Shown in pieces: positions 52,700 through 55,705 of a DNA stretch of 64,000 nt (positions within the stretch are counted from its first letter, which is position 1; each line of letters starts with the position of its first letter). Below the pieces are notes generated by a model, which searched no databases, was not told where the DNA came from, and saw nothing but the letters and a program-made list of their open reading frames with translations. This DNA is from Mesorhizobium sp. (GTDB taxonomy: Bacteria; Pseudomonadota; Alphaproteobacteria; Rhizobiales; Rhizobiaceae): positions 89,176 to 153,175 of the forward strand of contig SAQL01000001.1 of NCBI GenBank assembly GCA_004020645.1. Reading direction: 5' to 3'. Both the position numbers and the translations under genes were made by a program.

Positions 52700-52865
52700 G
52701 CGGCGCCTGCCACCTGCCCGGGCACGAGGCAAAGCCTGACCCAGCCATATCGGCGCTGCCCTAATTTTAGGCAGGTCGCGACATACTGATCGCCGGCATC
52801 CTCCAAATCACCGATTGCGCTTGATTTTCTCCCGTGACGCCAGTGAAATGGCCTCACAGGGGAGT

Positions 52866-54284
52866 ATGCGATTGGCAGCGTTCGACGAAATGCTTCCGGA
52901 AGTCTCCGGATTGAGAAAACCGTATTCGGCTTACGATCGCTGGCTGAAGGAGCAGGATCCGGCCAGGCTTACCGAGAAGATGCAGGACGCCGAACGCGTC
53001 TTTCGCAAGACCGGCATCACCTTTGCCGTCTATGGCGAGCAGGAAGCCTCCGAACGCCTTATTCCCTTCGATATCGTTCCGCGCATCATTTCCGGCAATG
53101 AGTGGCGACGGCTGACGCAAGGCATCGAGCAGCGCGTCCAGGCGCTGAACGCGTTTCTCGACGATATCTACCACCGCCAGGAGATCTTGCGCGCCGGGCG
53201 CGTCCCCAAGGAATTGATCGCCAAGAACGAGGCGTTCCTGCCGGAGATGATCGGAGTGCGGCCGCCAGCCGGCGTCTACACCCATATCATCGGCGTCGAT
53301 ATCGTGCGCATCAGCGAGAACGAGTTCTATGTGCTGGAGGACAATGCGCGCACGCCATCCGGCGTCTCCTACATGCTGGAGAACCGCGAGACGATGATGC
53401 AGCTCTTTCCCGAGCTGTTCCAGCAGATCAAGGTGCGGCCGGTGGAAAACTATCCGCAGCTCTTGCGCCAGTCGCTGGCGGCGGTGCGACCACTGAGCAC
53501 CAAGGGTGCGCCGACCATTGCCGTGCTGACGCCGGGCAGCTTCAACTCCGCCTATTTCGAACATGCCTTCCTTGCCGACCAGATGGGCGTGCAGCTTGTC
53601 GAGGGGCAGGATCTGCGCGTCGTCGATGGCCACGTCGCGATGCGTACGACCGAAGGCTACAAGCAGATCGACGTGCTTTATCGAAGGGTGGACGATTCTT
53701 TCCTCGATCCGCTGACCTTCCGTCCGGACTCGGCACTTGGAGTGCCTGGCATCATGGATGTCTACCGCGCCGGCAACATCACCATCGCCAATGCGCCGGG
53801 AACCGGCATCGCCGATGACAAGGCGATCTATTCCTACATGCCCGAGATCGTCGAATTCTACACTGGCCGCAAGGCAATCCTCGGCAACATCCCGACCTGG
53901 CGCTGCTCGGAGCCGGACAGCCTGAAATACGTGCTCGAACATATCGACGAGCTGGTGGTGAAGGAGGTGCACGGCTCCGGCGGCTACGGCATGCTGGTCG
54001 GGCCGGCGGCGACCAAGAAGGAATGTGAGGACTTTTCCAAAAAACTCGCGGCAAAACCGTCGAACTACATCGCCCAGCCGACGCTGGCGCTGTCGACCTG
54101 TCCGATCCTGACCGACAAGGGGCTGGCGCCGCGCCATGTCGATCTCAGGCCCTATGTGCTGGTGTCCGACCGCATTCAGATCGTGCCGGGCGGGCTGACG
54201 CGCGTGGCGCTGAAGGAAGGCTCGCTGGTGGTCAACTCATCGCAGGGCGGCGGGACGAAGGATACGTGGGTGCTGGATGATTAG
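52866..54284 (+). CDS. circularly permuted ATP-grasp protein (CP_ATPgrasp_2)
   Basis: A 472-residue predicted peptide ligase of the circularly permuted ATP-grasp type (former DUF404/DUF407). Marks: RKPYSAYDRWLKEQ, AVYGEQEASERLIPFDIVPR, YVLEDNARTPSGVSYMLENR, VVKEVHGSGGYGMLVGP and SSQGGGTKDTWVLDD. ATG 52866 lies very close to GGGGAG, so TTG 52872 (MAAFDEML) with better spacing may be the real start. First gene of an Anbu cluster, now separated from the alpha-E gene by a small insertion. Confidence 0.9.
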   Translation: MRLAAFDEMLPEVSGLRKPYSAYDRWLKEQDPARLTEKMQDAERVFRKTGITFAVYGEQEASERLIPFDIVPRIISGNEWRRLTQGIEQRVQALNAFLDDIYHRQEILRAGRVPKELIAKNEAFLPEMIGVRPPAGVYTHIIGVDIVRISENEFYVLEDNARTPSGVSYMLENRETMMQLFPELFQQIKVRPVENYPQLLRQSLAAVRPLSTKGAPTIAVLTPGSFNSAYFEHAFLADQMGVQLVEGQDLRVVDGHVAMRTTEGYKQIDVLYRRVDDSFLDPLTFRPDSALGVPGIMDVYRAGNITIANAPGTGIADDKAIYSYMPEIVEFYTGRKAILGNIPTWRCSEPDSLKYVLEHIDELVVKEVHGSGGYGMLVGPAATKKECEDFSKKLAAKPSNYIAQPTLALSTCPILTDKGLAPRHVDLRPYVLVSDRIQIVPGGLTRVALKEGSLVVNSSQGGGTKDTWVLDD

Positions 54285-54287
54285 AGT

Positions 54288-54742
54288 GGGAAGTAGCGAG
54301 TAGGGAATAGCGAGTAGCGAATAGGGGGTGTGCGACGGCGATCAATTCTTACAGGGACCTGATTGTTTGGAAGGCAGCCATCGAATTGGCGGTAGATTGC
54401 TATTCCGTGACGACAGCGTTCCCGAGCAAGGAAGCATACGGAATGACCTCTCAGATAAGGCGCTCGGCGGCGTCAATCGCAGCAAACATCGCGGAGGGTC
54501 ACGGACGAGAAAATACGGGAGCCTTCATTCAATTTCTGCGCATTGCTCAAGGTTCTCTTAAAGAATTGGAAACGCACCTGATCTTGTCCGGGAGAGTGGG
54601 CTTGATGGTTGAGAAAGAGGGCGGTCGGTTGCTTAATCAAACCGAGGAGATCGGGAAAATGTTGCGTTTGATGATCAGGAGTCTGCAACAAAAGTCATGA
54701 AGTATTTTTTCCCCTATTCGCTATTCGCAATTCGCTATTCGC
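54288..54742 (+). mobile_element. small repeat-bounded insertion carrying a four-helix-bundle gene
   Basis: Left end: repeats of the type TAGCGAGTAGCGAATAGGGG (54288-54328). Right end: CCCCTATTCGCTATTCGCAA and more copies (54711-54742), inverse to the left end. About 455 bp lie between the ATP-grasp and alpha-E genes, which are normally adjacent. The only gene inside encodes a 23S-rRNA-intervening-sequence type protein. There is no transposase, so mobility is inferred from the ends and the site. Confidence 0.6.
54335..54700 (+). CDS. four-helix-bundle protein (23S rRNA intervening-sequence type), ACG at the expected start
   Basis: The family signature is complete: INSYRDLIVWKAAIELAV, then SQIRRSAASIAANIAEGHGR and FLRIAQGSLKELETHL. 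The expected N-terminus has ACG at 54335, 6 bp after AGGGGG, where family members have ATG. The only other start in frame is TTG at 54386, which would drop the first helix. Either ACG is used weakly, or a point mutation disabled the gene. About 121 aa if ACG is the start. Function of the family is unknown. Confidence 0.75.
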   Translation, partial: TAINSYRDLIVWKAAIELAVDCYSVTTAFPSKEAYGMTSQIRRSAASIAANIAEGHGRENTGAFIQFLRIAQGSLKELETHLILSGRVGLMVEKEGGRLLNQTEEIGKMLRLMIRSLQQKS

Positions 54743-54763
54743 TCGACATCGAGGCAGATTGAG

Positions 54764-55705
54764 ATGCTTCTCGGCCGCACCGCCAACGGGCTCTACTGGA
54801 TGAACCGCTACATCGAGCGGGCGGAAAACATGGCGCGGCTGGTCGATGCCGGGCTGCGCATGGCGCTGACTCGTACCCAGAACGCCTCCGAAGAGTGGAA
54901 TTCGGTGCTGCTCAGCGCCGGTTCGGACGCCGCCTTTACGCAGAAGTATTCCGACTATACCGCCGCCAATGTCGCGGATTTCCTGCTGCGCGACACATCG
55001 AACCCGTCGAGCACGATGGCATCGATCGAGACGGCCCGCAACAACGCCCGCATGGTGCGCACCGCCCTGACGCGCGAGACCTGGGAAAGCATCAACGAGG
55101 CCTGGATGTCACTGAAGCGCATGCTGGCCAAGCCGATCGACGAACGCGACCTGCCCAGCGTGCTCGACGCGATCAAGCGCGAAACGGCGCTGATCCGCGG
55201 TTCGTTCTACGGCACCATGCTGCGCAACGAGATCTTCGATTTCTCGCAGCTCGGCACCTATGTCGAACGCGCCGATAACACGGCACGCATCCTGGACGTG
55301 AAATACTACGTGCTGTTGCCGTCGATTTCGTGGGTCGGCTCGACGCTCGACAACTACCAGTGGGAATCGATCCTGCGTTCGGTGTCGGCGCACCGCTCCT
55401 ATCGCTGGGTCTACGAGGCAGACTACAAGCCGAGCAACATCGCCGACTATCTGATCCTCAACGTTCGCATGCCGCGCTCGCTGACATTCTGCTACCGTTT
55501 CCTGACGGAGCACCTCAGATTCCTGGGCGACGATTATGGCGAGCGCCATGCCTGTCATGTGACAGCGGGCAAGACCCAGGCCATGCTGACGGCCGGCTCG
55601 ATCAAGGACATATTCGACGCCGGCCTGCATGAATTCCTGGCCAATTTCATCCGCGATAACACCAGGCTCGGCGACGAGATCGCGCAGGACTACAGGTTCT
55701 ATTGA
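54764..55705 (+). CDS. alpha-E domain protein (DUF403)
   Basis: A 313-residue all-helical protein starting MLLGRTANGLYWMNRYIERA, the DUF403/alpha-E signature, with NARMVRTALTRETWESINEA and FRIADNTARILD-like segments (YVERADNTARILDVKYY). It is known as the partner of circularly permuted ATP-grasp enzymes in Anbu and amidoligase operons. Role: likely scaffold or substrate adaptor; not demonstrated. Confidence 0.92.
   Translation: MLLGRTANGLYWMNRYIERAENMARLVDAGLRMALTRTQNASEEWNSVLLSAGSDAAFTQKYSDYTAANVADFLLRDTSNPSSTMASIETARNNARMVRTALTRETWESINEAWMSLKRMLAKPIDERDLPSVLDAIKRETALIRGSFYGTMLRNEIFDFSQLGTYVERADNTARILDVKYYVLLPSISWVGSTLDNYQWESILRSVSAHRSYRWVYEADYKPSNIADYLILNVRMPRSLTFCYRFLTEHLRFLGDDYGERHACHVTAGKTQAMLTAGSIKDIFDAGLHEFLANFIRDNTRLGDEIAQDYRFY

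Follow-up and report, generated by a model that had tools for sequence, protein, structure and literature searches.

The DNA analysed here is a stretch of 64,000 nucleotides from Mesorhizobium sp. (the window), and at 54288-54742 it carries a 455-bp insert between a CP-ATPgrasp gene and an Alpha-E gene (Table 1). Repeats in inverse orientation at both ends, an enclosed family protein and an ACG at its conserved start position after AGGGGG had been pointed out in the preliminary description, and all three were found. The inverted arms (54295-54327 and 54711-54743) are 33 nt long and 88% complementary; they pair with each other in the minimum-energy structure of the folded element, which has a z of -3.9. 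As for the lack of a transposase stated there, the PF05635 gene is the only family-matched gene inside. Neither a recombinase nor a target-site duplication was identified for the element, and the 21-bp spacer of empty sites, compared by eye, is out of register with the occupied flanks. No match to a sigma-70-type promoter or terminator was seen in 54200-54800, and no Rfam match at gathering score within the window.

Table 1. Features of the element and its neighbours (window coordinates).
Feature	Position	Strand	Evidence
CP-ATPgrasp (circularly permuted ATP-grasp) gene, upstream neighbour	52815..54284	+	PF14403, E 1.8e-167 for 52839-54281
Left heptad arm, units TAGCGAA/TAGCGAG/TAGGGAA	54286..54328	+	inverted copy at right, 88% over 33 nt
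Shine-Dalgarno-like AGGGGG	54323..54328	+	six bases 5' of ACG
ACG, putative start codon	54335..54337	+	invariant in 23/23 intact same-site orthologs
Four-helix-bundle gene PF05635/NF008911, 121 codons + TGA	54335..54700	+	profile matches; pN/pS 0.137
Internal TTG, codon 18, not start	54386..54388	+	codons 2-17 pN/pS 0.123
Right heptad arm, TATTCGC units, inverse of left arm	54711..54743	+	
Alpha-E domain gene, downstream neighbour	54764..55705	+	PF04168, E 2.4e-92

PF05635 is a protein family named after the intervening sequences (IVSs) of 23S rRNA (S23p). The frame of the element matches this profile with an E of 3.7e-37 (127.2 bits, cut-off 33.8), and the protein also matches TIGR02436 (122.4, cut-off 24) and NF008911 (170, cut-off 137), with 2gsc and 2rld as relatives in the PDB. 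It scores below the cut-off for bAvd (PF22296; 20.3 bits, cut-off 40). A structure predicted from the single sequence, with no alignment, contains helices only, at a mediocre pLDDT of 67, and was given no weight. A search of the genome for PF05635 genes yielded one, which is that of the window. To our knowledge, the IVS protein has no known function so far.

The frame is open from ACG 54335 up to TGA 54698-54700, and there is no in-frame ATG, GTG or TTG from TAG 54308 to codon 18 (TTG 54386). Since this TAG stands in frame, we rejected for the window's element that its gene is fused to the upstream gene or reached from it by read-through. A search of 146 genomes of the genus found the same flanks with a gene-sized insert in at least 31, a lower bound because 59 of the remaining 115 genomes were read. 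Across 30 of these the insert could be read, L050 being broken by a contig end, and the frame-anchored codon is ACG in 28 of the 30. In L044 the ACG is kept and followed by a small deletion; L070 belongs to another subfamily and is also broken. Seven of the 30 copies are not intact and were excluded. Among the remaining 23 the ACG is invariant, while the next codon is GCG in 12, GCA in seven and different in each of the other four, and complete invariance is found in none of 27 fourfold columns and in 4 of 120 other codons. Thus, the ACG behaves as a fixed codon and not as a threonine codon.

In the intact copies pN/pS is 0.137 for codons 2-121 and 0.123 for codons 2-17, compared with 1.6 and 2.1 in the other two frames. 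These low values, also over codons 2-17, indicate that the frame encodes a protein which begins before TTG 54386. The neighbouring gene at this site, taken over its first 330 nt in the same genomes, has a pN of 0.054 and a pS of 0.391, a ratio of 0.138. The suggestion that the gene is possibly silenced is not supported by this agreement, nor is a start at TTG 54386, as the 16 preceding codons are under the same purifying selection. Among 253 pairs, 77 have a pS that is higher in the ORF than in the flank by >0.25, and 4 have one that is lower by this margin. Judged from these alignments, ACG 54335 is no fresh start mutation. We also considered a GTG start in another frame (54328, 77-aa ORF) and rejected it, as a GTG up to 9 bases before the start position is present in 9 of the 30 same-site copies. 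With an unusual initiator tRNA in mind as a reason for the ACG, we ran two pattern searches of the genome, neither of which found this tRNA. The ACG might also be edited to AUG by a C-to-U change, known from chloroplasts, but a passage of PMC9845219 describes such editing as unobserved in bacteria.

The ACG is also found outside the genus and the site of the window. We collected 234 PF05635 locus entries (some from the same place), of which 195 are unique, forming 131 clusters at <85% identity; the collection is biased towards proteins related to that of the window, and frames of fewer than 90 codons were dropped. Each frame was followed to its upstream stop, and a canonical start was sought before a conserved tyrosine. 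In 20 of the 131 clusters there is no ATG, GTG or TTG before this residue, and 18 of these have an ACG 4-6 codons before it; as background, ACG occurs at codon -5 in 3 of 90 clusters with a canonical start farther upstream. The other two (L145, L190) have no ACG there. Counted by unique elements, ACG is present in 42 of the 45 without a canonical start. A Shine-Dalgarno sequence lies 4-9 nt 5' of the ACG in 17 of the 18 ACG clusters, and the mean Shine-Dalgarno energy is -8.7 kcal/mol, versus -4.1 kcal/mol at internal ACG codons (n=251). Owing to ties at -7.8, only 7 of the 18 are strictly below the 5th percentile of this control, which we counted against our interpretation. In L148 a TAA stands immediately 5' of the ACG, and in L168 an in-frame TGA five codons 5' of it.

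The 42 unique ACG elements occupy two junctions, CP-ATPgrasp/Alpha-E and nuoC/nuoD. They span at least 10 genera: 24 are from the window's own genus, and the others are from nine additional genus codes within its family and from named records (Rhizobium, Shinella, Devosia, Cucumibacter and others), which may overlap with these codes. Placed on a tree, the ACG label requires 8 changes compared with 19.0 when shuffled (20 clusters under a looser rule, on a poorly resolved tree), which therefore points to few origins of the ACG. Among the matches listed in our literature search, titles and abstract openings contained no report of ACG starts in the PF05635 family, subscription journals being mostly outside its coverage, and the word ACG is absent from PMC11497404 and PMC13245402. 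Sequestration of the Shine-Dalgarno sequence by the right arm was rejected as a general rule, the mean pairing probability over the 18 ACG elements being 0.17; in four of them the probability of pairing with the right-arm region is 0.38-0.55. Three Rhizobium-type ACG elements (L181, L182, L194) carry an out-of-frame ATG just 5' of the ACG, and in R. lentis (L244) a one-base difference brings this ATG into frame, unlike in the other three.

Heptad arms accompany the PF05635 gene across the family as sampled here. The match of the left arm to the inverse right arm lies above the 99th percentile of shuffles in 123 of 130 clusters (mean score 23.5; shuffled mean 8.0, 99th percentile 12). By phylum, the test is passed by 8/9 clusters of Cyanobacteriota, 2/3 of Planctomycetota, 2/3 of Acidobacteriota, 2/2 of Bacteroidota, 1/1 of Chloroflexota, 1/1 of Candidatus Altimarinota and 32/34 of Pseudomonadota, and by 75 of the remaining 77 clusters. 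A separate, wider phylum sample, picked by PF05635 score and availability, gave 22 of 37 loci, a result that we counted against our interpretation. Among 94 left arms with strong periodicity (at least 17 of 21 bases), the period is 7 in 74, 14 in 8, 8 in 11 and 15 in one. The most frequent units are TAGCGAA (18 clusters), TCGGCAG (10), TGGTGAA (8) and TAGTGAG (7), besides others; units vary between elements, and both arms within one element are of one class. The own partner arm is best or tied in 36 of 130 clusters and within the top 5% in 91, which again counts against us. At the window's site (72 loci) arm agreement is 21.6 with the own partner, 21.8 with others of the same state and 14.6 with other states. 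The likeness of the arms is thus one of heptad class and not of the individual pair. Four elements (L121, L127, L137, L140) have 8-base, TAGGGCAG-like units, and the gene preceding them presumably encodes a protein whose C-terminus resembles glutamine synthetase. No report of heptad arms tied to PF05635 was found in titles and abstract openings among the matches listed, again with subscription journals mostly outside coverage.

Two loci of one genome (L403 and L404) carry the PF05635 gene within LSU rRNA (RF02541). Their arms score 25, compared with at most 10-11 in 20 shuffles, and the period is 14 at the left and 7 at the right, at 16 of 21 bases and hence just below our threshold. These two are in the classical IVS position and have the same build as the window's element.

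A search for further copies of the end repeats elsewhere in the genome had also been proposed; such copies are expected of insertion sequences and MITEs, and they exist. In the 7.66-Mb genome a GCGAATA-type pattern (up to 2 mismatches) has 19 matches, versus 2 for the reversed pattern, and a wider heptad pattern has 93 versus 0. There are 14 further armed loci, all without PF05635; in two of them (L357, L358) just one left unit is marked. Outside the arrays, the 14 loci have no blastn match to one another at E 0.01. Genus genomes with PF05635 have a median of 20.5 heptad-pattern matches (n=118) and those without 4.5 (n=28; p 2.6e-7, genome size and kinship being ignored). At least 5 matches are present in 14 of the 28 genomes without PF05635, which is another point against our interpretation.

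The mobile-like character ascribed to the element predicts presence and absence among relatives, and such polymorphism was observed in a same-site set of 89 loci (29 from the genus search and 60 fetched afterwards, of the 146 genomes). The ORF is present in 30, a short core with ATGCCATATTCC-like sequence in 26, the empty 21-bp spacer in 17, another core in 6, an internally deleted ORF in 4 and something else in 6; L053 and L055 resemble the coreM type but were counted in the last group by the regular expression. On a flank tree of 330 bases of one gene, with 7 starred branches, the six states require 42 changes, compared with 49.0 when shuffled, and 2 of 200 shuffles were as low. On this short tree, the state of the site appears weakly, though non-randomly, tied to its flank. 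Simple vertical descent at one site was rejected on the same numbers, together with the difference in pS between ORF and flank given above. The turnover could also result from homologous recombination between species. In L051 (G034) the outer left arm of the window's element is kept and encloses a different core with other heptads farther in, as if cores had been exchanged within the array. Short armed elements of the same site, such as L065, L067 and L104, have a common core that contains a Shine-Dalgarno-like stretch and ATGCCATATTCCATTGARATTCAA.

A second site was found directly before nuoD, where 63 of the 131 PF05635 clusters are located (e.g. L115, L130, L142, L181), a proportion affected by the biased sampling. 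These elements belong to several subfamilies with different heptads, and the nuoC/nuoD junction is a recurrent insertion site. According to a crude gene caller both neighbours lie on the strand of the element in 114 of the 131 clusters; for the clusters that are not at the two main sites the count is 35 of 43. At the two main sites it gave 79 of 88, though homology had already placed the neighbours in sense there, so the caller misses some sense neighbours. The sense orientation fits elements that rely on a host transcript.

How does the element compare with known systems? Passages of PMC4990558 describe a 428-nt IVS in the 23S rRNA of Coxiella burnetii, with an S23p ORF, heptameric direct repeats just 5' of this ORF and excision by RNase III. 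The window's element shares with IVSs as described there the S23p-family ORF, complementary termini that can form a long stem and the sporadic distribution among relatives, and the heptad-type arms of L403/L404 in 23S rRNA add to the likeness. Unlike the IVS in these passages, it lies between protein genes in an operon and combines multi-unit heptad arrays, a putative ACG start and an ORF under purifying selection. Its flanks being protein genes and not rRNA, its location places it outside the rRNA IVS class.

Heptad arrays have also been described on their own. The heptanucleotide STRRs of cyanobacteria are intergenic heptad arrays. MITEs and REP elements are transposase-less, intergenic and multi-copy, with short inverted-repeat units; the ends here, unlike theirs, are tandem heptads that differ between elements, and the cores are dissimilar. 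The GGGAATC repeats of Xanthomonas and the GGGGA(T/C)T repeats of Nostoc, according to passages of PMC4692102, form mostly intergenic arrays, as here but of other heptamers, and two Xanthomonas genomes have 70 and 75 convergent neighbouring pairs that may form stem-loops. The terms 'S23', 'four helix' and '23S' are absent from the main text of PMC4692102, which thus makes no link to PF05635. The intergenic TAACTGA arrays of Beggiatoaceae, for which the authors consider mobility, are direct repeats with one inverted case, unlike the inverted arms described here, and the passages of PMC4679880 on these repeats make no link to PF05635. A figure-legend passage of PMC10910872 lists 23S rRNA IVP proteins among new associations of CRISPR adaptation modules; here the same family name stands beside repeat arrays, in a CRISPR context, and the passage contains nothing on heptad arms.

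Taken together, we consider it rather probable that the insert is an IVS-like, transcript-resident selfish element, in one lineage of which the gene starts at ACG. It would have the build of a 23S rRNA IVS and reside in a protein operon, and it is probably transcribed within the operon mRNA, given that no sigma-70-type promoter was seen in it and that it is inserted between two genes in the sense orientation. Sequence and folding show that its two heptad arms can pair as a long stem, presumably of the type cut by RNase III in rRNA IVSs. The S23p-family four-helix-bundle protein would be translated from the Shine-Dalgarno sequence and the ACG, a start for which conservation argues strongly, probably at a low level. 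The protein is under selection and may act on heptad-armed nucleic acid to maintain or spread such elements, which is speculative. What keeps the arms alike may be selection on their pairing or else template switching from one arm to the other.

Could the gene instead be a decaying insertion, a pseudogene in which ATG mutated to ACG and which is conserved by shared ancestry only? Six same-site copies of the window's subfamily have frameshifts or stops (L041, L042, L044, L047, L048, L049), which we counted against our reading, and PMC4990558 reports that the S23p encoded by the Coxiella IVS is probably not produced in vivo. However, among intact copies the pairs with dS >0.1 (234 of 253) have a median dS of 1.19 and a dN/dS of 0.068, pN/pS is close to that of the adjacent gene, and the ACG recurs in 42 of 45 elements across at least 10 genera; we regard decay as very improbable. 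Only slightly better placed is a start at the isoleucine of codon 3 (near-cognate AUC/AUU/AUA) or at TTG 54386, with the ACG conserved otherwise, for example as RNA structure. Codon 3 is ATC in 20 and ATT in 3 of the 23 intact copies, and the TTG is present in 22. Against such a start stand the Shine-Dalgarno spacing, which suits the ACG (4-9 nt in 17/18), the constraint on codons 2-17 as protein, and the variation of the isoleucine codon beside an invariant ACG; moreover, the bases of the ACG pair with the right-arm region, the only one tabulated, with a probability of at most 0.19 in 18 folds.

The alternative that deserves most attention, although we still judge it unlikely, is that slippage-prone heptad arrays passively capture and exchange unrelated cores by recombination, with PF05635 as one cargo that has no part in their spread. 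The 14 armed loci free of PF05635, with array-masked stretches that do not match one another, the several dissimilar cores at the window's site, the outer left arm retained around a different core in G034 and the pattern matches in half of the genus genomes without PF05635 would all agree with this. It does not readily explain why 123 of 130 PF05635 clusters carry arms, among them members of six named phyla other than Pseudomonadota, and why PF05635-positive genomes are richer in pattern matches, with the reservation on size and kinship given above.

Returning to the selfish, transcript-resident element, a wider reading is tempting but somewhat doubtful: rRNA IVSs would be the rRNA-resident members of a bacteria-wide group of such elements, defined by inverted heptad arms and an arm-acting PF05635 protein, and one lineage of Hyphomicrobiales would have kept ACG as sole start across many genera, where the codon would serve as an inherent brake on expression. 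The tie of PF05635 to heptad arms in an rRNA gene and in operons offers a testable common definition of IVS elements, and it makes the PF05635 protein a candidate partner of heptameric repeats that have been reported independently from several phyla. If true, a long-conserved bacterial ACG start would contradict the working rule of annotation that genes begin with ATG, GTG or TTG, and genes with such a start would probably be mis-annotated. In five TCGGCAG-type elements of the window's site (L159, L165, L169, L170, L199) the left array has no stop and the nearest in-frame ATG is 25-30 codons upstream, so the repeat array itself may be translated there.
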